Source: Planctomycetales bacterium (GTDB lineage: Bacteria > Planctomycetota > Planctomycetia > Isosphaerales > Isosphaeraceae). Taken from it: a stretch of 64,000 bases of DNA. The DNA lies in assembly GCA_027459775.1 (NCBI GenBank), contig DAIDHE010000093.1:1-64000 (forward strand). Reading direction: 5' to 3'. Of the stretch, positions 1,121-63,590 are shown in pieces. Position numbers and translations under genes: made by a program. Numbering within the stretch: the first letter of the stretch is position 1; each line of letters begins with the position of its first letter. The notes beneath the pieces are model-generated. The model ran no database searches. It saw only the letters and a list, made by a program, of their open reading frames with translations, and was not told the origin of the DNA.

Positions 1121-2026
1121 ATGGAGTTTCATTCCCAGCAACCCGATGCCGGTCCAGCTTCGATGCCCGACCCTCGCAAAGTCTTGGCCACGATTCGGCG
1201 CGCGACCGAGCTTTTGCGCAAGACGCCGGGGCGCGTCGGGGGGGTGGTCAATCTGCTCCACGCGCGCGAGGTGCTGGTCGTCGGCGACCTGCACGGCAAC
1301 CTGGCCGCGTTCAGGCGGGTGCTCGAGGTGGCGGCCCTCGACAAAAACCCCGAGCGGCATCTCGTGCTGCAAGAACTGGTCCACGGCCCGCTCGCGTATC
1401 CCGGCGACATGGGCGACCGCTCACATCAGCTCGTCGATCTGACGGCGGCCCTCAAGTGCCAGTACCCCGACCGCGTCCACCTGATCCTGGGCAACCACGA
1501 GCTTTCCGAAATCACCGACCGCATCATCGGCAAGGACGGCGCGGTCCTGAACGTCAAGTTTCGCCAGGGAATCACGACCGCCTACGGCGAGGCGAGCACC
1601 GAGATTTTCAAGGCTTATAAAGAACTCTTTCGCGCACTCCCGCTCGCGATCCGCACCCGGAACCGCGTCTTTATCTGTCATACCATCCCCGACGCCCGCG
1701 ACCTCGACACCATCGATCTCAACCTGCTCAGAGCCGACGACTGGCCTGCCGAGGCGATGCAGCGGCGCGGAACCATCTACGCACTCACCTGGGGACGCGA
1801 CGAGAGCCCCGAAACCGTCGACCACTTCGCCGCCATGGTCGACGCCGACCTGTTCGTCACCGGCCACCAACCCTGCGACGACGGCTTTCGTCAAGCCAAC
1901 CACCGCCAGATCATCATCGACGGCACCCCCCCGTTTCCCTGCTATTGCCTCTTCCCGTGCGACCGAACCATCGGCATCAAGGATCTTGTGGCCGGCGTGA
2001 AGGTTCTCGCGACGCCGGAAGCATGA
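1121..2026 (+). CDS. PPP-type calcineurin-like metallophosphatase
   Basis: The protein carries the three signature blocks of the PPP/metallophosphoesterase fold: GDLHGN (residues 55-60), GDMGDR (95-100) and GNHE (124-127), with later histidines in FICHT and VTGHQP completing a two-metal site. The GDxxDR form resembles Ser/Thr protein phosphatases and diadenosine-tetraphosphatases more than generic phosphoesterases. There is no signal peptide or membrane segment, so it should be cytoplasmic. The true substrate is unknown. The start is uncertain: ATG at 1121 is the longest, while ATG at 1163 gives a compact N-terminus; neither has a convincing Shine-Dalgarno. It stands alone between the ABC-F gene and the esterase gene. 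Confidence 0.85.
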   Translation: MEFHSQQPDAGPASMPDPRKVLATIRRATELLRKTPGRVGGVVNLLHAREVLVVGDLHGNLAAFRRVLEVAALDKNPERHLVLQELVHGPLAYPGDMGDRSHQLVDLTAALKCQYPDRVHLILGNHELSEITDRIIGKDGAVLNVKFRQGITTAYGEASTEIFKAYKELFRALPLAIRTRNRVFICHTIPDARDLDTIDLNLLRADDWPAEAMQRRGTIYALTWGRDESPETVDHFAAMVDADLFVTGHQPCDDGFRQANHRQIIIDGTPPFPCYCLFPCDRTIGIKDLVAGVKVLATPEA

Positions 2027-2148
2027 TCGGCGGACCGGGGGTCCGCGCGGCAATCCAGGACGCTAGGCCGTTTGAGCCGGCCGGCCGGCGCGATACCATG
2101 GCTTCCGCGAGTGAACCCTCCTCCAGAGCCCTGCGCAGGATCACACCC

Positions 2149-4581
2149 ATGAAATCACCGCTATCCACAATCGCCGTGCTGCTCGTGGTCGGGGCCAGCG
2201 CACGAGCGAGCGACGCCCCTCGACCGCCTGCGCAGGTGCTCATTCTGGCGAGCGATTTTCCGCGTTTGGATCAGGGGGTCGATCTCGGCGTCCAGGGCGA
2301 GGCGACTTTTCAGGCCTGGACCGCGGCGGGAGACGACTGGCGTCTCACCGAGCACGACGGGCGGATCGTGCTCCATCGCACGGCTCGCTCTCAGGAAACA
2401 TCGCCACGCTGGACGAATCTCGGCAAGGTCGCGCTCAAGCCCGGCCGGGAGACCAAGATCACGATCGACGCCAGCCCAGCGGCCGCGGACGCCAAGACCG
2501 CCAAGACAAAGAGCACACGGGGCGCGAAGCCGGTGGTCGAACACGCGCCGGCCGCCCCCGCCCTCTTGTGGATGGATACCGAAGGCAAAGCCCCCCCCAC
2601 GCTCGACATCATCCGCGGCAGGATCGACGACGCATCGCCGACCCCGGATCTCAGGCGCACGACCGTACGGACCAACTACGACGGGATCGGGTTTCAGGCG
2701 CCGGCAACCGCCGAACAATGGCGCGACCGGGCCGCTCATTTGCGCGATCAGTTAAGCATCACGCTGGGCCTCTGGCCCGGTTTCCCCCGGACGCCCCTCC
2801 ATCCCATGATCCACGGCAAGCTCGACCGCGGCGATTACACGATCGAGAAGGTCGTGCTCGAGACGCTGCCGGGCTTCACACTGAGCGGAAACCTCTACCG
2901 GCCCGCGCACGCCGCCGGCAAGCGCCCCGCCGTCCTCTGCCCCCACGGCCACTGGGAAGACGGCCGGATGAATCCCGAAGTCCAGATGCGCTGTATCCGG
3001 CTGGCCAAGCTCGGCTGCGTCGTCTTCATGTATGACATGGTCGGCTACAACGACAGCAAGCCGTTCCCGCATGAATTCTTGAACGACCATTTGCGGCAAT
3101 TCGGCCTCAGCCTGCCCACGCTCCAGACCTGGAACAGCCTGCGCGCGGTCGACTGGATCTCGGCCCTGCCCGACGTCGACCCCGCCCGGATCGGCTGTAC
3201 CGGCGAGTCGGGGGGGGGAACGCAGACGTTTCTCCTGACGGCCCTCGACCCTCGGATCGCGGTGTCCGCGCCCATTGTGATGGTGTCCGATACGTTTCAG
3301 GGGGGCTGCGTGTGTGAAAACGCGGCGGGCCTGCGGATCGGTACCGACAATGTCGAAATCGCCGCCTTGACGGCTCCACGCCCGCTCATGATGGTGGGGG
3401 CGTCGGGCGACTGGACGGCGAAGACCATGGACCGGGCGTATCCCGCGATTCGCGGCGTCTACACGCTCGTCGGTTCGACCGGCCGTGTGTCCGCCCGCGT
3501 CTTTGACTTTCCCCACAACTACAACCAGACCAGTCGCAACGCCGTCTATCCGTTCCTGGCGCGGTGGCTTTTGGGCGTGACCGATGACTCCACGACCCGC
3601 GAGGGCGCTCAGCGGCCCGAGACGGCCGCCGAGCTGTCGACGTGGGACTCTGGCCATCCTCGGCCCAGCGATCGGAAGACGCCCGAGCAGCTCGAGGCGT
3701 ACCTGACCGATGAGATCCAAAAAGGGGTGGACGCGCTCGGTCCTCACGACGCCCCACAGTGGACGGCCGCTCGGCAAATGCTACAGACAATGCTGAGGGT
3801 TCGCGTGGGTCTCTTGAATCCGACTCCCGAACAGCTCACCGTCTCAAGGATTCGGGTGGTGGCGCGCGAGGACGCGGCCATCGAGCATCTCGTGGTCGGC
3901 CGCAGGGGCGTGGGCGACGCGGTTCCGATCGTGCGGATCACCCCTCGGCGCTCCGCCAACCGATCGACGGTGATCGCGAGCGCCCGCGGCAAGGCCGCCC
4001 TCGTGGATGCGACCGGAGAGCCCACGCCGCTTGTGCGCGAGCTCCTCAAGCAGGGCAATTCCGTGGTTGGGTTCGACCCGCTCTTCGTCGGCGAGGCGCT
4101 CGACCCTCGGAATCCCTCGCACAAGCGCCCGAGCGCGGTCCATTTCGAGACCTACAATCCCGCGAGTGCGGCCGACCAGCTCCAGGACCTGGCAACCGCG
4201 ACCTCATGGGCCCAGGCCCAGCCCGACGCGCGCTCGGTGAGCCTGATCGCGCTCGACGACGGTGGAGCGCAAGCGCTCCTGGCCCTGCCCTTGCTCGAAA
4301 ACGTCGCGCGGGCTTGCATCGTCCTCGCGCCACGGCCTGATCCCATGGCAAAAGGCCCCGCCGCACTCTCGGTCGACCTGCCGGGCCTGGCTCAGTTCGG
4401 CGGCTGGAAGTCCGCGGCCGCCCTCGCCGCACCCACGCCGCTTTGGGTCGCGGGCCATGGCCTCGACGCATCATGGTCCAAGAGAGCCTACACGCTCGCG
4501 GGCGCGAGCCACGTCCTCAAGATCGACGACGACCAGCCCGAGCCCGACCGCCTCGCGCGCTGGATCGCACTCGGCGAGTGA
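2149..4581 (+). CDS. Secreted alpha/beta-hydrolase, acetyl-xylan-esterase-like
   Basis: An 810-aa exported protein with a hydrophobic signal sequence at the N-terminus (MKSPLSTIAVLLVVGAS then ARA). The central part is an alpha/beta-hydrolase: RPAVLCPHGHW forms the strand and oxyanion region, and GESGGG with Ser354 is the nucleophile elbow, followed by APRPLMMVGASGDWT and a late HNYNQ that may supply the histidine. Planctomycetes carry many such hydrolases annotated as acetyl xylan esterase or dienelactone-hydrolase-like. The N-terminal ~190 residues and the C-terminal ~250 residues are additional domains not recognised here. The start at 2149 was chosen because the signal peptide begins there; the longer frame overlaps the phosphatase gene. 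The polysaccharide-ester substrate is inference. Confidence 0.8.
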   Translation: MKSPLSTIAVLLVVGASARASDAPRPPAQVLILASDFPRLDQGVDLGVQGEATFQAWTAAGDDWRLTEHDGRIVLHRTARSQETSPRWTNLGKVALKPGRETKITIDASPAAADAKTAKTKSTRGAKPVVEHAPAAPALLWMDTEGKAPPTLDIIRGRIDDASPTPDLRRTTVRTNYDGIGFQAPATAEQWRDRAAHLRDQLSITLGLWPGFPRTPLHPMIHGKLDRGDYTIEKVVLETLPGFTLSGNLYRPAHAAGKRPAVLCPHGHWEDGRMNPEVQMRCIRLAKLGCVVFMYDMVGYNDSKPFPHEFLNDHLRQFGLSLPTLQTWNSLRAVDWISALPDVDPARIGCTGESGGGTQTFLLTALDPRIAVSAPIVMVSDTFQGGCVCENAAGLRIGTDNVEIAALTAPRPLMMVGASGDWTAKTMDRAYPAIRGVYTLVGSTGRVSARVFDFPHNYNQTSRNAVYPFLARWLLGVTDDSTTREGAQRPETAAELSTWDSGHPRPSDRKTPEQLEAYLTDEIQKGVDALGPHDAPQWTAARQMLQTMLRVRVGLLNPTPEQLTVSRIRVVAREDAAIEHLVVGRRGVGDAVPIVRITPRRSANRSTVIASARGKAALVDATGEPTPLVRELLKQGNSVVGFDPLFVGEALDPRNPSHKRPSAVHFETYNPASAADQLQDLATATSWAQAQPDARSVSLIALDDGGAQALLALPLLENVARACIVLAPRPDPMAKGPAALSVDLPGLAQFGGWKSAAALAAPTPLWVAGHGLDASWSKRAYTLAGASHVLKIDDDQPEPDRLARWIALGE

Positions 4582-53839: not shown

Positions 53840-54877
53840 TCAGGCGTGCTGGGCGACGTTGAGCCAGGTGTGGACGTGGGGAGCGCCTCGGAAGTACCAC
53901 GAGAACGCCGGCCCCTCGAGCTTCCAGAGATCCCAGACGCCGTCGTTGCCGATGTCGCCTTCCTTGTAGAACGTCAGGCGCAGGGCGTCAACCCCGCCCG
54001 CGCCGCTCAGGCAGGCGCGGACCTCGTCGGCGTCGAAGGCCCGGAACGGGCGGAGCATCATCTCGAGGAGCTGGCTGATCATGGCCTTCTGCTGGCTGTC
54101 GAGCCCGGCGACATCGAGGCCCGTCTTGGGCAGATTCTTGCCCTTGAGCGAGGTCGTCTTGGGGGCGTCGGCGGGGGCGGCCGCGACCAGGGCCTGGGCC
54201 TTTTGCTTGTCGTCGAGGGTCGCGAAGACCTTGTTCGCCTGCTCGGCCTGATACCACCAGACGTTATGGGTGTGCTTGGCGTCTTCCTGGTCGTGGCCGT
54301 CGGCGGCGTGGCCGTAGAAAATCGGCCCGCCGAACGCCGCCCCATTCACGCTGTTGCCGTCTGCGCGGAGCGTGTCGTGGCGGCCGGAAAGAACCCATTC
54401 AAACGGCTTCTCGCCGCCCGGTTCGCCGAAAACGGCCACGTGGTAGTTCTCAAACCCGCCCGAGTCGTCGTCCATCTGTTTCATGAACCGCTCGTAGCCC
54501 TCTTCGCTACAGAGATTCTTCATGATCTCGCGGCAGAGGGCCTGCTGCTCCGAGTTCATGTCGTCGATGGTGGGCTTGACGATGGCCCAGTTGTTGCCGA
54601 CCTTCGACCGCAGCGGGTGGTCAAAGGGAAAGCAGATCACCTTGCGCTGTTCGGGGGTGATGGTCTTGTAGAATCGCGCGACCGCGGTTTCGGCGGCGGC
54701 CTGGGGCGTGGGACCCTTGACGGCCGCATCGCCGGCCAGAGCGCCGGTCCGGCCGATGATCGGCAGCGTGGCGGCCGCCGCGGCCCCGCCAATCCGCTTC
54801 AAAAAATCACGCCGCGACGCTCCATCGCACGTCGGGCATTCCCTCTCGCTCGGGCCGCGGTCATGGATTCTGGTCAT
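53840..54877 (-). CDS. DUF3500 protein with Tat-type signal
   Basis: A 345-aa exported protein. The N-terminus has a twin-arginine signal, SRRDFLKRIGGAAAAATL, so it is folded before export, often with a cofactor. The body, with FYKTITPEQRKVICFPFD, WVLSGRHDTLRADG, FGGPIFYGHAA and HTHNVWWYQAEQANKVF, matches DUF3500; the many His residues in the middle suggest a metal site. The function is unknown. ATG 54877 has AGGAG nine bases upstream. It is convergent with nrdJ and has no partner. Confidence 0.85.
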   Translation of the reverse strand: MTRIHDRGPSERECPTCDGASRRDFLKRIGGAAAAATLPIIGRTGALAGDAAVKGPTPQAAAETAVARFYKTITPEQRKVICFPFDHPLRSKVGNNWAIVKPTIDDMNSEQQALCREIMKNLCSEEGYERFMKQMDDDSGGFENYHVAVFGEPGGEKPFEWVLSGRHDTLRADGNSVNGAAFGGPIFYGHAADGHDQEDAKHTHNVWWYQAEQANKVFATLDDKQKAQALVAAAPADAPKTTSLKGKNLPKTGLDVAGLDSQQKAMISQLLEMMLRPFRAFDADEVRACLSGAGGVDALRLTFYKEGDIGNDGVWDLWKLEGPAFSWYFRGAPHVHTWLNVAQHA

Positions 54878-57291: not shown

Positions 57292-57891
57292 ATGCTGGCC
57301 TGGATTCATTCCGAGGATGGCGCCAATGAGGTCTCGCGGCTGATCCACCGCGCGCTGTGCCCGTGCCGCGAAGGGGATGATCTTTTCCAGGACGTCTGGT
57401 GCGATCTGATCTCGAATTGGCCGCGGATCGTGGCCTCGTACGACCTCGCCCGCGGCGCCTGGACTGCGTATCTCCGCGGCGTGATCCGAAACACGGCGAG
57501 AAAACGCACGTGGAGGTTGACTCACAACCCCCCGCCGCTCCTATTCCTTCCGGACCTCGACCTCACGCTCGTGGACGGCCGATCAACGGCGGAGGGTGTG
57601 TACGCGAGGGCCCAGGAGACTTGCCAGGCACTCGAGTACGCATTCGCCACGCTCGCGGCTCGCGTCGACAGCATGAACTTTGAAATCCTCGATCGCCGTC
57701 TGAAGAGACGCCAGACGGTGAGCGAAATCGCGGCCGCGCTCAAGATCCCGACGACAACGGTCTACAAGCGGCTCGGGAGGATGAAACGGAAGCTCAAGGA
57801 TATCGTGGGTGCGTGGGTGCGGACCAGAGAGGAATCAGCGCTCCAAGACCTGTTGAATCGAAAAAAACCGGGGGGGGGGTCTAAAAAGTAG
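57292..57891 (+). CDS. Sigma-70 family RNA polymerase sigma factor (ECF-like)
   Basis: A 199-aa sigma factor. Region 2 is seen in CREGDDLFQDVWCDLISNW and YDLARGAWTAYLRGVIRNTARK, and region 4 in SEIAAALKIPTTTVYKRLGR with a basic helix after it. The middle linker is typical for ECF factors. Its target promoters are unknown; the next genes on the same strand (glycosyltransferase, Cys-rich peptide, LolA-like protein) are plausible targets. ATG 57292 is preferred because GAGG lies five bases upstream; the frame is open to 57169 in case of an earlier start. The C-terminus ends in a Gly/Lys tail. Confidence 0.85.
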   Translation: MLAWIHSEDGANEVSRLIHRALCPCREGDDLFQDVWCDLISNWPRIVASYDLARGAWTAYLRGVIRNTARKRTWRLTHNPPPLLFLPDLDLTLVDGRSTAEGVYARAQETCQALEYAFATLAARVDSMNFEILDRRLKRRQTVSEIAAALKIPTTTVYKRLGRMKRKLKDIVGAWVRTREESALQDLLNRKKPGGGSKK

Positions 57892-58248
57892 GTGCAAAGG
57901 ATATCTCTCTATTAGAGCCGATGTGCGTTCGATGGATGTTGGGACTTCTCCAGAGACCGGTCTCGGGATCGCCGAGCCATGGTGATCGATGGGTTGGCCA
58001 AATGAACCAGGAACGACGACGGCAATTGGTCAAACGACTTTCGGCAGCCAGAGCTCGAGACCCCTCTCTCACGATGCGTGGACTCGGGTCGACCCTGCTC
58101 GCAGGCACTGCGTCAATGAGCATCGGGGCGTCGGAACTGAGAGCCGTGGGCAACTCTACCGCATGAAATGCAAGCGCGAATACGTCTTCGCGCCCGAATC
58201 TTTTGCAAGGCAAACAACGTGTGCGGAACTCGCGTTTGCCCCGGAACA
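57892..58248. other. Intergenic stretch before the glycosyltransferase gene
   Basis: About 360 bases of lower GC content. One small reading frame (58002-58166) is open but shows no domain or ribosome site and was not accepted. A start at 58168 for the glycosyltransferase frame is possible, which would shorten this region. Confidence 0.35.
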
Positions 58249-61185
58249 ATGCCCCAGCCCTTTGCCGCGGTCTCGCCGCGGTCGAATGACATCGTCAATC
58301 GCCTCGGTTCCAGAAAGCGGTTTGTGATCCCCGCGGTGGCTCTACTGCTTGCGACTCACGCCGGAATGCTTGCATATTCGGCGACAAAACAGAGTCCGAC
58401 AGAGCTGGAGCCGGCCTTTCTCGTCGCGGGGCTGAGCCATGATCAGTTTGGTCACTTTAATCTCTTCCGCGTCAATCCGCCTCTCGTGCGAATGGTAGCC
58501 GCACTGCCCGTAATGGCCGCCGGTTACAAGATGGACTGGAGCGGCTTTCGCGACGCCCCCGGCGCCCGACCTGAGTTCGCGCTGGGGACGGATTTCCTAA
58601 AATCCAATGGCGAACGTTCCATCTGGCTGTTCACAATCGCTCGCTGGGCCTGTCTTCCGTTGAGCTTGGTCGGAGCATTGTTTTGCTTTTTCTGGTCCCG
58701 AGAGCTCTGGGGCCGCGACGAGGCGGGGTTGATCGCGCTCATCCTTTGGTGCTTCGAGCCCAACATTCTCGCGCACGGACAACTCATCACGACCGACTGC
58801 GCCGCCGCGAGCTTCGGCGTCGGCGCGGCGTTCTTTTTCTGGCGATGGCTCAAAAAACAGACCTGGGCGCGCGCGGGGCTCGCCGGGCTACTGTTCGCGT
58901 TGGCTCAACTCTCCAAGCTCAGTTGGCTGTTTCTCTATGGGCTGTGGCCACTCCTATGGCTGTTCTGGATCTGGAACGAGGGTCGCGGCGGCGGAGAACG
59001 CAAAACGCGGCCTCGATCTTCTCTGTTTGCCTCAGCGCTGCAACTGGCGTACATTCTCGGGCTTGGGTTGTATCTGACCAACCTGGCTTATGGCTTCAGC
59101 GGAACGGGAACGCGTTTGGGCGATTTCCCGTTCGTCAGTCATCTGCTCGGCGGAAACAAACCGGGCGAGGTAGGAAACCGATTCGCGACCTCGGCGTTCG
59201 GTAACATTGTCGTTCCGCTACCCAGCCAGTATTTATTGGGGTTTGATCTGCAGAAAAAGGATTTCGAGGATTTCGGGCAGCCCTCGTACCTGCGGGGCGA
59301 ATGGAAAGACGGCGGTTGGTGGTATTATTACCTCTACGGTCTGGCCGTCAAGACGCCGCACGGCACGCAGATCATGTTTCTGCTGGCGACATTCACGATG
59401 ATTTACGCCGGTACGCGAAAGTCCGGCCACACGGCGTCACTGAACGGCGGTCATCTGTCAGTCCTGCTCATGCCGGCCCTCGTGTTGTTGGTATTGGTGA
59501 GCTCACAGCTGGAGTTCAATCAGCATGTTCGGTACGTGCTGCCAGTCCTGGGATTCGCGTTCGTCATGACCGGCGCGGCGGCGTCCTGGTTCTCGGCCGC
59601 GCCTTGGGCTTTGCGGCTTGGTCGAGCGCGGTTCCCGATGGCATCCGGCTGTCAAGCTCTGATCCTGGTATCGCTGCTGGCGACCACCGCCAGCACCCTC
59701 GCCGTCTATCCGCGCCAGCTCGCCTACTTCAATGAGCTCGCGGGCGGGCCGCTCAACGGCCCGAGGCATCTGCTCGGGAGCAATGTCGATTGGGGGCAGG
59801 GCCTCCTTGCGTTGGAGACTTTATTAGATGTGCGCTCTGACTGGGGTCCAGTCGCGCTGCTTGGCTCGGGATCACCCGATATGCTTGGCATGCGAGTCGT
59901 TCCAGAAAGTGCTCAGGCGCCAATCGCATCATTCACTGGATATAGTCACATCGCAGTCCGTGTCAACGAGCTGGCCGGAGACGGGCGAGCGTTTCGTCTC
60001 AACGGGAATGCGCCCGGCGATGGCGAGCTCCTGGCGGCCCTGCGTCGTCAACGGCCGGCGGCCGTCACGGATTACTCGATCTTGGTTTTTGAAACGAAGC
60101 CGCTACTCGGGCAACCTGGTGTAGAGGATCCAGACGACGGGCCGCACGGAACAGTTCACGCGACGGATACCGAGGCGGCGTTTCCGACCTCCTTACCATC
60201 CCTCGCCGATGCCCGGGAGACAACACCCACGATTTCGCTTTTGAACCATGTTCTGCTTTTGCATGGACCTCTCGACACCTGTTCGAACACCCCCGTATCG
60301 GGCCTGGAGGCTCTACGAATCCTCACGGATGAGCGACGCGCCATCGCCGCATTCGGCGAGTCTCCGTTTGTTCGCACCCGAAACGGTTTGCGGTACAAGA
60401 TCGACAATGTGCTGGCTTCAGAGGCAGGCATCGGTGAGTCGCACCGCGATCAATGCCTGGCAACCTTTGCCTACGTTGGAATACCACCGACCTATCCGAT
60501 CACTCTGCGATCGGAAGCATGTCGTATCCAAGATCTGATCTCGGAGTCGGTTGCTCATTTCCGTCTTGATCAACGCGAGATCGCGTGGACGGCGATCGCC
60601 TATGCCCACTATCTTCCCCCAGCCCGAGACTGGACTGACAGGTTCGGGCGAACAACCACGTTTTCGACGTTGTTACAACACTTGATTGACATGGGATACA
60701 GCGGCCAAAGTTGTGGTGGGTTGCACGTCTTGCAGGCAATCGCCGCGATCGTCGAGGCAGATTACCGACGCGGAATTCTCGATCGCCGAATCCGCTTGGT
60801 GGGGCGGAGGTTCGTGCAGGACTCGGTTAAACTGGCTCTCCTCTCTCAATCGGAAGACGGGGCATGGGATCTCGATTGGTTTCATCCGAGTTCAGATGTC
60901 CTGTCGCACTCCAGCGATCCGTCGTCTCTTGAATCAAGGATCGTGGTCACGGGCCATATGCTGCAACTGATGCACGACGAGTTACGCGACCCGCCACGTC
61001 ACGCCATGTTACGGGCCACTCGATGGCTGATCGGGGTGCTTGAGAAGCTTCCGAAAGGCTCCAAGCCGACCCACATCGGGGTGTGCCCGCTCACTCATGC
61101 GTTGGTCGGCATTCAACGCTCGCGTGGCAACCGAGGTGTGTCTCACGAAATGCAGTACCTGTTTGCCACTGACAAACATCAATGA
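58249..61185 (+). CDS. GT-C glycosyltransferase fused to an alpha/alpha-toroid-like domain
   Basis: A ~978-aa membrane protein. The first ~640 residues form a GT-C glycosyltransferase of the PMT/ArnT kind: TM segments start at FVIPAVALLLATHAGMLAY, the first loop has the Glu-containing LEPAFLVAGLSHD and NPPLVRMVAALPVM, and about ten hydrophobic helices follow. The C-terminal ~330 residues are a soluble helical domain with IGESHRDQCLATFAYVG, SCGGLHVLQAIAAIVEADY, SQSEDGAWDLDWF and IVVTGHMLQLMHDEL; the DGAW and GH motifs recall alpha/alpha-toroid proteins such as terpene cyclases and prenyltransferases. Start uncertain: ATG 58249 is used, ATG 58168 is possible, and neither has a clear SD. Codon use is less GC-biased than upstream genes. 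Confidence 0.75.
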   Translation: MPQPFAAVSPRSNDIVNRLGSRKRFVIPAVALLLATHAGMLAYSATKQSPTELEPAFLVAGLSHDQFGHFNLFRVNPPLVRMVAALPVMAAGYKMDWSGFRDAPGARPEFALGTDFLKSNGERSIWLFTIARWACLPLSLVGALFCFFWSRELWGRDEAGLIALILWCFEPNILAHGQLITTDCAAASFGVGAAFFFWRWLKKQTWARAGLAGLLFALAQLSKLSWLFLYGLWPLLWLFWIWNEGRGGGERKTRPRSSLFASALQLAYILGLGLYLTNLAYGFSGTGTRLGDFPFVSHLLGGNKPGEVGNRFATSAFGNIVVPLPSQYLLGFDLQKKDFEDFGQPSYLRGEWKDGGWWYYYLYGLAVKTPHGTQIMFLLATFTMIYAGTRKSGHTASLNGGHLSVLLMPALVLLVLVSSQLEFNQHVRYVLPVLGFAFVMTGAAASWFSAAPWALRLGRARFPMASGCQALILVSLLATTASTLAVYPRQLAYFNELAGGPLNGPRHLLGSNVDWGQGLLALETLLDVRSDWGPVALLGSGSPDMLGMRVVPESAQAPIASFTGYSHIAVRVNELAGDGRAFRLNGNAPGDGELLAALRRQRPAAVTDYSILVFETKPLLGQPGVEDPDDGPHGTVHATDTEAAFPTSLPSLADARETTPTISLLNHVLLLHGPLDTCSNTPVSGLEALRILTDERRAIAAFGESPFVRTRNGLRYKIDNVLASEAGIGESHRDQCLATFAYVGIPPTYPITLRSEACRIQDLISESVAHFRLDQREIAWTAIAYAHYLPPARDWTDRFGRTTTFSTLLQHLIDMGYSGQSCGGLHVLQAIAAIVEADYRRGILDRRIRLVGRRFVQDSVKLALLSQSEDGAWDLDWFHPSSDVLSHSSDPSSLESRIVVTGHMLQLMHDELRDPPRHAMLRATRWLIGVLEKLPKGSKPTHIGVCPLTHALVGIQRSRGNRGVSHEMQYLFATDKHQ

Positions 61186-61285
61186 AAGGAGGATCCGCGT
61201 CTCATTCTTCCAATGAGGTCTGTCCCAGGCGTTGCTAGACCTATTCACCAGTCACGGGTTCGTTTCACTGGAAAGGGGAGACCCA

Positions 61286-61628
61286 ATGTCAGTTGTACTG
61301 AAAGCAAGCGTGATCCTTGCCGCCTTCGCGGCAATGGCAACGCTGTTGTCCGCGGATTCAGACCCCGGCCAGCCGATCTCAACCGCGCTTTGCGCTGAAT
61401 TGCGCGGCGGCGCGCGTGGCAGCGTTTCACCGGCGCAGTACACCGACACGCGGATCTGCTCACAGCCAACGGCTATATATCCAGGACGGGAGCGTCTGTG
61501 AGTGGTGCCCGCTCAACGGTGCCACGACTACTGACTATACTACGATTTACAACAGCAAGACCGTGTGTAACGATTCGACGCGAGGGTTCACTGGCTGTGT
61601 GGATTCTAACACCATATCACCTCTTTAG
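61286..61628 (+). pseudogene. Cys-rich secreted peptide gene with LRGG motif, frameshifted
   Basis: From ATG 61286, preceded by AAGGGGAG at ideal spacing, the frame encodes a signal peptide (SVVLKASVILAAFAAMATLL) and CAELRGGARGSVSP, then stops at 61501. A second frame, starting in the overlap near 61440-61470, continues with RLYIQDGSVCEWCPLNGATT and TVCNDSTRGFTGCVDSNT and ends at 61628. Together they read as one ~113-aa exported protein with a double-Gly motif and a Cys-rich end (six Cys). A one-base insertion would join them. It may be a frameshift in this strain, a sequencing error or a genuine pair. It lies between the glycosyltransferase and LolA-like genes. Confidence 0.6.
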
Positions 61629-61923
61629 CAAGGGGTGGTAACTTCTCAATAACTCTGGGTGGTCCATTCGAACAACGATGAACCGCACCCACGCTTTTCG
61701 CGTTTGGATCCGCGATTCGACGGTCCGAGAGGCATTTGGGGCTCATTAGGGCCGGTCACCGTTCAACCGTGGACGGTCGCTTTCCCGGACTGATTGAGCA
61801 GTTACCAAAGAGTCTTGTTTCGCTGTTTGACTTTCGGGGAAATACCTTCGAATACAGTGAGTGACCATGATCGGAAAAAGAAGAGAAGGGACCAACCCAG
61901 GTTTTCAGTGTGAGGAGGTTACC

Positions 61924-63165
61924 ATGTCGGCAAGACGCGTCGTGTTCTGCTGGGCAATCAGCCTTCTGTACTTGAGTACGGTCCAACCGCCGCCCGTTGC
62001 GGCGTCACAGAAACCTCAACCACCAGAGCACTCGCTTGATGACTGTCGAGCGGTCTTGCAGCGCGTTGTCGCGGCCCTGCAAAATGTCGACATCGAGTTC
62101 ACGGTGAAGGTGGACTGGCAGACTCCAAATTTGCCCCGCATGACCGGGGAGTCCGGGCATATTTACCTTGATCAGGGCAAAATGTCTTTTCGCTTCGAGC
62201 GCACTTTTCCCCCCCTTCCAGGCCGCCCGCACGTCGTGGAACTGGAGGAAGAAACCTATGACGGAAAGACCCATTACCTAGGCAAGAACAGCGTGGGAGG
62301 GACTCCGTCAATTACGACGATGCTCGGAGATAACCCGAATAGCTCATACGCGTGGCAGCACTTCACCAGGACGTGTCTTTACCTTGAGGCAGCGGGATAC
62401 CGACTCCCCAGAAAGGTCGCACAGTGGAAAGGAGGCAAATTGACATCCGTGGTTCTCGACTACCTGGAGGAAGGCCAAGTCAATCGTGTTACGACCGACA
62501 ACGCCACCTCATCAATCGTTGTCAGCGTGACGATCACGGATCCCGTCGTGTTGGATGCGAAGACGACCGATCTCGACCTGCTCGCCAAGGAAATGACGCA
62601 GTACAAGAACACCCGTGCCGAGATTGAAGAGAGAGTTGGCGAAGTGAGACGGCTACGGACTTCCGACAGGAAGCGGCGCGTGGACCTGTGGTTGGATCCG
62701 GGTAAAGGCTATTCCGTGGTCCGTCGTGTGGAATCGACGCTCGATGGAAAGTTGATCCACGAGATCAAAGCCACGGACTTCAAGCAGTTCGGCAAGGATG
62801 CTGTGTGGCTTCCCGAGAATGGCACAATCAAGACGTTTGTCTGGGACACCAGGCTTGCGGCGGGTTTTCAGAGCGAGCCTGACAGGACCGACGTCGTTCA
62901 TTTGGAACATGTCCGCTTCGAACCTCGGCAGGATATTTCCTTCGTGTTGGACTACGGTCCGGGAACAGCGATCCTGGACCGGAGTTCCAAGGATGCAAGG
63001 TCGTCCGCGTCCGGGCAGGTAGCCTTTATCAAGCCTGGTTCGCTGGAAGAACTTCGGCACCCCGCCGATGTGAAACGACCTCGACAATGGTTTTTGGTGG
63101 TGAATGTCGTACTCGTGGTGATTCTTGTCGTGGGACTGGTAATGTGGAGAATTCGATCACGATAG
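61924..63165 (+). CDS. Membrane-anchored LolA-like protein of unknown function
   Basis: A 413-aa protein with a signal peptide (VVFCWAISLLYLSTVQPPPV) and a C-terminal membrane helix (WFLVVNVVLVVILVVGLVM) ending in a basic tail. The middle is beta-rich (IEFTVKVDWQTPNLPRMTGE, GKMSFRFERTF, RVDLWLDPGKGYSVVRRVES), resembling LolA/LppX-type lipoprotein-carrier folds, in which a half-barrel binds lipid. The start is secure: ATG 61924 follows GAGGAGG five bases upstream. Codon use is less GC-rich than in the first 57 kb. It is the third gene of the glycosyltransferase/Cys-rich cluster. The function is unknown. Confidence 0.75.
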   Translation: MSARRVVFCWAISLLYLSTVQPPPVAASQKPQPPEHSLDDCRAVLQRVVAALQNVDIEFTVKVDWQTPNLPRMTGESGHIYLDQGKMSFRFERTFPPLPGRPHVVELEEETYDGKTHYLGKNSVGGTPSITTMLGDNPNSSYAWQHFTRTCLYLEAAGYRLPRKVAQWKGGKLTSVVLDYLEEGQVNRVTTDNATSSIVVSVTITDPVVLDAKTTDLDLLAKEMTQYKNTRAEIEERVGEVRRLRTSDRKRRVDLWLDPGKGYSVVRRVESTLDGKLIHEIKATDFKQFGKDAVWLPENGTIKTFVWDTRLAAGFQSEPDRTDVVHLEHVRFEPRQDISFVLDYGPGTAILDRSSKDARSSASGQVAFIKPGSLEELRHPADVKRPRQWFLVVNVVLVVILVVGLVMWRIRSR

Positions 63166-63197: not shown

Positions 63198-63590
63198 TTA
63201 CTCCCAGGGTAAGAAAGGCGTCGGCCTGAAGGCGGACCCGCCATGCGTGAGCACCTGGCCGCGTAACAGTGCGGGCTCAGTAACTGCGTAACGCTTCGAG
63301 TCTCTTGACACGTGGACGATGGCCTCGAGGCAGCCGGCTTTCAGCCAGCGGCGGCCTTGCTGGTAGACCATCTCCCACGGGTGAGGTTCTTGCAAAGGCA
63401 GCGCCGCGCCACCGGGAGCCGGTGTGGACGATCGAGCGCGGCAGGTTGTCGAAGACATCGCGGAGGTTTTAGGCGCGCTGGCTGGCGTCCTCGGGCAAGA
63501 GGCAGAGAGCAGAGACGACGAATTCCCGTTCAGGGTCGCTGACATCGCTGGGTCGGGTTGGTGGGTGATCATACCCTATTCTATGCCGGC
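63198..63590 (-). pseudogene. IS5-family transposase remnant
   Basis: The minus strand encodes, in two frames, fragments of an IS5-type transposase N-terminus: SDPEREFVVSALCLLPEDAS, then after an in-frame stop NLRDVFDNLPRSIVHTG, which matches the Y.LRDVFNGLRWIVRTG motif, and, in the next frame, HPWEMVYQQGRRWLKAGCLE, which matches PPWEAVYQQ..RWL.AGCFE. The DDE catalytic part is missing and the frames are shifted. No inverted repeats or target duplication were recognised. This is a decayed insertion sequence near the right edge. Confidence 0.7.

Follow-up and report, generated by a model that had tools for sequence, protein, structure and literature searches.

The genes on the forward strand between positions 57,292 and 63,165 of the window (the 64-kb stretch analysed here, with which an 82.9-kb contig begins in an assembly of 6.4 Mb and 494 contigs) appear to derive by degeneration from a laterally mobile module for the production of small, disulfide-rich exported peptides, processed as proposed below. 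Judging from the sequences, we give this reading of the four window genes a probability of about 0.68. The module consists of genes for a toroid protein, a small exported Cys-rich peptide and an exported C39 peptidase, together with one or two genes for LolA-like proteins and, in many cases, one for a membrane glycosyltransferase (GT). It is carried by planctomycete genomes and one Verrucomicrobiae MAG: examples are G096, G030, G028 (with several modules), G040, G054 and G004, and the named carriers are Singulisphaera acidiphila DSM 18658 (G028, of the same family; NC_019892, with a module at about 5.34 Mb), one MAG each from Isosphaeraceae and Planctomycetaceae, and the Verrucomicrobiae MAG. 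Two fuller modules exist in the window's own genome, in contig 168 (sigma factor, peptide, LolA-like, C39, toroid) and in contig 433 (peptide, C39, toroid, LolA-like). No description of such a module was found in the literature searched.

A preliminary description of this DNA had noted a lower GC content from about 57 kb onwards, which was borne out by calculation: GC is 0.583 at 57.2–63.2 kb versus 0.658 ± 0.014 in 6-kb bins over 1–56 kb, that is, about 5 SD under the local value, where the lowest 6-kb bin is 0.616. The dip begins earlier than the module, with 0.566 already at 56–57 kb. Codon use, described as changing along with it, is only mildly atypical (rank fractions of 0.07–0.36 for the 57–63 kb genes, relative to 28 host ORFs). 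The genes named in that description are all present on the plus strand. Just upstream of the GC drop, on the minus strand (53,840–54,877), we observed a gene for a TAT-signal protein with a DUF3500 domain (E 3e-22). The decayed insertion sequence (IS) proposed downstream comes down to one weak match with DUF4096 (IS4/5-type; E 0.008) at 63,198–63,572 on the minus strand, and the assembly has no second long copy of this stretch. A plasmid collection searched for a match yielded none.

The association of the module genes was assessed by counting C39 genes, LolA-like genes and peptides with a strict GG/GA pattern within 6 kb of toroid genes. The first set comprised 79 toroid loci outside the window (78 distinct ones, L042 and L160 being the same locus twice). 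C39 was found in 20 of the 79 (19 of the 78), always together with a LolA-like gene, and the 59 loci devoid of C39 had neither LolA-like gene nor peptide. Among 20 new loci in a held-out set, seven carried C39, all seven with a LolA-like gene and four with a strict peptide, while 13 had none of the three. Over the combined 98 distinct loci, LolA-like genes thus accompany 26 out of 26 C39-positive toroids versus none of 72 C39-negative ones, and the strict peptide occurs in 17 of the 26 versus none of the 72 (Fisher 7e-25, calculated from the uncorrected 27/72 counts and with related genomes not being independent draws). The strict pattern missed nine of the 26 module loci; a relaxed search, confined to module loci, recovered eight of these, so that 25 out of 26 loci have a Cys-rich peptide that carries a signal and GG, GA, GS or GQ, and only L039 yielded no peptide. 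Gene set and order are kept across relatives with different flanks, the sigma factor gene excepted. L255 has GT, toroid, peptide, C39, C39, LolA-like and LolA-like genes in this sequence, and L092 has GT–toroid–peptide–C39–LolA. The window follows L255 up to the peptide gene and then continues directly with the LolA-like gene, without C39.

The peptide gene of the window starts with a signal-like stretch and a degenerate double-glycine leader ending in LRGG (61,286–61,501, plus strand; LRGG codons at 61,400–61,411), and the Cys-rich rest of the core follows in another frame (61,502–61,628, plus strand), where ORF 61,317–61,628 reads ...YIQDGSVCEWCPLNG...FTGCVDSNTISPL. All three elements of the exported Cys-rich LRGG peptide announced earlier (signal-like stretch, LRGG and Cys-rich tail) are therefore there, but not in one open frame, owing to either a real frameshift or a sequencing or assembly error. 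The gene occupies the position of the Cys-rich peptides with a signal and GG/GA in relatives. The precursors of the latter consist of a Sec-type signal-like hydrophobic stretch (signal peptides being called from hydrophobicity only), a leader V-S-x-x-E-A-x-x-I/L-x-G-G/A and a core. In the first 15 precursors, V/I-12, E/D-8, I/L/V-4 and G-2 were each found in 15 out of 15: position -12 is V in 14 and I in the other, -8 is E in 14 and D in the other, -7 is mostly A, and -1 is G, A, S or Q. This matches the published recognition sequence of C39 peptidases, which cut double-glycine leaders with L-12/E-8/L-7 and Gly-Gly, Gly-Ala or Gly-Ser (PMC6363468). The cores measure 47–98 aa, with mostly six or eight Cys, and the even number of Cys in 21 out of 26 is as expected for peptides predicted to be secreted and disulfide-rich.

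Since the peptides of relatives carry a canonical double-glycine leader, the LRGG of the window is predicted to be a leader cleavage site; LRGG also recurs as the end of the leader in L252 and L266. We had considered LRGG as a ubiquitin-like C-terminal tail and rejected this, because the GG is internal, at a fixed spacing from V-12/E-8/I-4, with a Cys-rich core downstream in relatives. The window leader retains I-12, S-11, L-4 and GG and has no E-8; it scores 1.9 bits, a value reached by 23 of the 1874 G[GA] sites that served as background, and because of this low score, membership of the window peptide in the module rests on its position. Two or more precursor genes occur in L144, L158 and L266. 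In L144 (Verrucomicrobiae; 1569–3577), there are at least two long, near-identical tandem precursor genes (VSDEEAGTLFGA leaders), with an additional strict precursor match at a greater distance.

The C39 proteins of the module belong to PF03412 (4e-20, 2e-24, 6e-20 and 3e-19) and are encoded by ORFs of 192–660 aa. The catalytic Cys-His-Asp is kept in the first C39 domain, while the second C39 domain or gene, which is often present, is without the aligned catalytic Cys. In most loci, a hydrophobic N-terminal stretch (judged by hydrophobicity) precedes the C39 domain. None of the six C39 proteins scanned with Pfam matched an ABC family, and no ABC transporter was seen with the module. In the window, the place of the relatives' exported C39 peptidase is taken by a gap (61,629–61,923, plus strand): a six-frame scan of 61,181–61,980 with a C39 HMM gave no match (best score, 3.7 bits), and no C39 was found downstream of the window module either. 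Nine C39 matches occur elsewhere in the genome. Contigs 278, 366, 415, 433 (5′ end) and 90 of the window's genome, G000 (L214, L216, L215, L220 and L219), have exported C39 genes without a toroid; these adjoin pilin-like (DUF1559-type) genes and, in some cases, LolA-like genes, and they would be part of a wider family of exported C39 clusters. A decayed module exists in a genome of the same genus (L145; G001:C196), where the catalytic Cys of C39 is replaced by Arg and the peptide core has two Cys only.

Where the preliminary description saw a glycosyltransferase with an added enzyme-like domain, a fused GT is indeed present, and the added domain is an α/α toroid. The two constitute a single in-frame protein of 978 aa (58,249–61,185, plus strand): a multi-TM GT-C (PMT/ArnT-like) part (58,249–60,219; PF02366 PMT, 2.7e-5) and a C-terminal toroid domain (60,220–61,185), the standalone relatives of which (E 6e-48 to 1e-26) are about 400 aa long. 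In L255, an unfused GT homologue (E 1e-146) precedes the module toroid at a distance of 83 bp, and others occur in L039 and L041; GT homologues are near module toroids in about half of the loci, with none detected near several modules. Two module toroids are fused to an N-terminal membrane part, those of the window and of L144. The N-terminal parts have no detectable relation to each other, the one in L144 being multi-TM-looking, and the toroids are sisters in the toroid tree (100/97). The second fusion disfavours an artefact as the origin of the first. In the sister toroid clade (including L044–L047, L049, L051 and L165–L178), a membrane GT-like gene adjoins the toroid gene in 31 of 31 close loci. 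As GT adjacency and fusions to membrane parts recur, we infer that toroid and GT work together. Glycosylation of the peptide is conceivable. In 10 of the 31 sister loci, the pair adjoins Tad pilus genes (RcpC, CpaF, TadB and TadC, by homology to L044), which suggests a role of these toroid–GT pairs in pilin modification.

Residues conserved across the toroid alignment are H, HxD, CxGxH, QxxxGxW, GH and H. The AF2 model of the toroid (pLDDT 77.7, pTM 0.80) resembles, according to Foldseek, the thioester domains of α2-macroglobulin as well as transcobalamin and terpene cyclases of class II (E ~0.02, probability up to 1.0), and the toroid profile matched only squalene–hopene cyclases weakly amongst PDB sequences (E 0.003). 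The DxDD motif of class II terpene cyclases is absent from the conserved columns, the GCGEQ/CGEQ thioester motif of α2-macroglobulin/C3 is not conserved in the alignment, where the conserved stretch is HRDQCL, and LanC was not among the 50 structures listed by Foldseek.

The last gene (61,924–63,165, plus strand) had been taken to encode a lipid-carrier-like protein, and the structure search agrees: Foldseek, queried with a low-confidence model (pLDDT 54), found members of the LolA superfamily (3buu, 3bk5 and 9tp6; E 2e-5 to 2e-4, probability 1.0), and its top six matches at E ≤ 2.2e-4 were the LolA superfamily and DUF1329. The window protein has no Pfam match, and the Lol models of Pfam matched only once (E 0.075) amongst 13 LolA-like members. 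In addition to an N-terminal signal, the protein has a C-terminal TM helix, suggesting that it is membrane-anchored.

The first gene, for an ECF-type sigma factor (57,292–57,891, plus strand), matches Sigma70_r2 (0.0048) and Sigma70_r4 (0.0076), both under the curated cut-offs. The sigma-like ORF is thus present as described, but it is not a conserved member of the module in other genomes. ECF-like genes lie upstream on the same strand at both other toroid modules of the window's genome (L083 and L082) and at L146; most relatives have none, and outside the window's genome, we rejected the sigma factor as a core member. It possibly regulates the module.

The conjecture that an imported system built around a secreted peptide is present is well supported by the conserved gene order, a patchy distribution, tree conflict and low GC. 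Within the family, eight out of 45 genomes contain toroid matches at E ≤ 1e-20, and none was found in a same-genus genome that is 98% complete. The toroid tree is at odds with taxonomy, joining different families and phyla, and the modules average three GC points under their own flanks (Wilcoxon p = 0.009).

The pathway could then run as follows. In intact modules, the precursor, with its Sec-type signal and canonical double-glycine leader, would be exported, and a membrane-anchored, exported C39 peptidase would cut it after GG/GA at the periplasmic side, as suggested by the catalytic residues, the leader motif and gene linkage; the released Cys-rich core would presumably oxidise to form disulfides. 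More speculatively, the peptide might be bound or modified by the toroid and its GT-C partner (fused in the window), glycosylation being the likeliest modification, and a role as carrier or chaperone towards the outer membrane might fall to the anchored LolA-fold protein. The peptide could end up in a surface structure, as a signal or in antagonism. With C39 gone, Glu-8 absent and the core frameshifted, the window copy is probably a relic, or else the two fuller modules make use of its toroid and LolA-like proteins; given the nine C39 matches elsewhere in the genome, the remaining proteins could act in trans. Taken as a whole, an undescribed extracytoplasmic maturation route (Sec-exported double-glycine precursors, exported C39 with a Cys-less partner, glycosylation by GT-C/toroid, an anchored LolA-fold carrier) that has spread laterally across Planctomycetota and into Verrucomicrobiota is a tentative proposal, for which we would claim somewhat less than even odds.

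A chance grouping of unrelated genes within a low-GC patch might be argued for the window cluster from the missing C39, the broken peptide and the unconserved sigma factor, but the co-occurrence counts speak strongly against it, the gene orders of L255 and L092 equal that of the window apart from C39, and the window toroid has another membrane-fused module toroid as its sister (100/97); we consider it highly improbable. The double-glycine leaders, C39 and hypervariable Cys-rich cores, all typical of bacteriocins (PMC6363468), together with the patchy distribution and the multiple precursor genes of L144, L158 and L266, would also fit an extracytoplasmic bacteriocin or microcin system, or contact-dependent antagonism, with the cores as antibacterial agents and with modification, delivery or immunity provided by the toroid, the GT or the LolA-like proteins. 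However, no ABC exporter with C39 and no recognised immunity gene were found, and the toroid-free exported-C39 clusters of the same genome, many of which adjoin pilin-like genes, fit surface structures at least equally well, so that we regard antagonism as possible, with the odds against it.

A surface fibre or pilus-like display akin to Fap or Tad, in which the peptides serve as subunits or as decorations, secretion is licensed by C39 as it is by FapD and the toroid–GT pair decorates the subunits, is doubtful to a similar degree. FapD, a Sec-exported C39, is required for fibre secretion (PMC5557850), the sister toroid clade always adjoins a GT, with Tad pilus genes in 10 of 31 loci, and pilin-like genes lie near eight of 20 module loci versus nine of 60 others. 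Yet the cores, being short and rich in disulfides, do not resemble amyloid-like repeats, no outer-membrane channel was seen among the neighbouring ORFs, and the pilin association is modest. Clearly less probable than either is a RiPP pathway in which the Cys-rich peptide is lipidated or cyclised by the toroid, acting as a terpene cyclase, prenyltransferase or LanC-like enzyme. The conserved His, Cys and Asp of the toroid, the Cys-rich substrate and the terpene cyclase matches of Foldseek and, weakly, the HMM search (E 0.003) agree with such a role; the absence of a conserved DxDD or CGEQ and of LanC among the 50 listed structures does not, and the toroid, anchored by an N-terminal TM or GT part, is probably exported, whereas prenyl diphosphates are cytoplasmic.

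Textbooks assign double-glycine leaders and C39 proteases, the latter normally located within the cell, to ABC-coupled export out of the cytoplasm. The module puts both behind Sec-type signals, with the substrate beside the protease. The closest precedent would be FapD of the functional-amyloid system Fap of Pseudomonas, a Sec-exported periplasmic C39 protein needed for secretion of Fap fibres, the target of which is unclear (PMC5557850). Both FapD and, by prediction, the module C39 are Sec-exported and periplasmic, have no ABC transporter and act on exported substrates, probably at GG/GA sites. The Fap proteins are without canonical C39 sites (PMC5557850), whereas the short precursors of the module have a double-glycine leader of canonical form; the module further differs by its LolA-fold, toroid and GT partners, and no FapC/FapF-like genes or amyloid-repeat subunits were seen among the neighbouring ORFs. 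Since the module has a protease next to its matching substrate, the target of exported C39 peptidases such as FapD becomes directly testable, and S. acidiphila DSM 18658 is a cultured, fully sequenced strain in which to do so.

Planctomycetes are a phylum known for unusual cell envelopes. The module ties LolA-fold proteins and the toroid family to peptide biogenesis and provides a handle to search for hidden disulfide-rich peptides in Planctomycetota. With the PCAT systems of class II bacteriocins and microcins (PMC6363468), it shares the Cys-His-Asp of C39 and a leader with L/V-12, E-8, hydrophobic -7/-4, G-2 and G/A/S-1, but it has no ABC domains, and its -7 residue is usually Ala; as protease and peptide each have their own signal, cleavage should follow Sec export and not be coupled to transport. 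The second C39 of the module lacks the catalytic Cys like the C39-like domains of the HlyB type, but unlike these, it has a predicted active and exported C39 as its partner and is free of any fused ABC transporter. The LolA-like protein has the predicted fold of the LolA/LolB/LprG/LppX superfamily and is likewise predicted to be extracytoplasmic, but it differs by a C-terminal TM anchor and by the absence of a significant sequence-family match. Finally, the toroid has the predicted α/α topology of α2-macroglobulin, transcobalamin and class II terpene cyclases, but the signature motifs of these three families were not seen in it and, unlike them, it often adjoins, or is fused to, a membrane glycosyltransferase.
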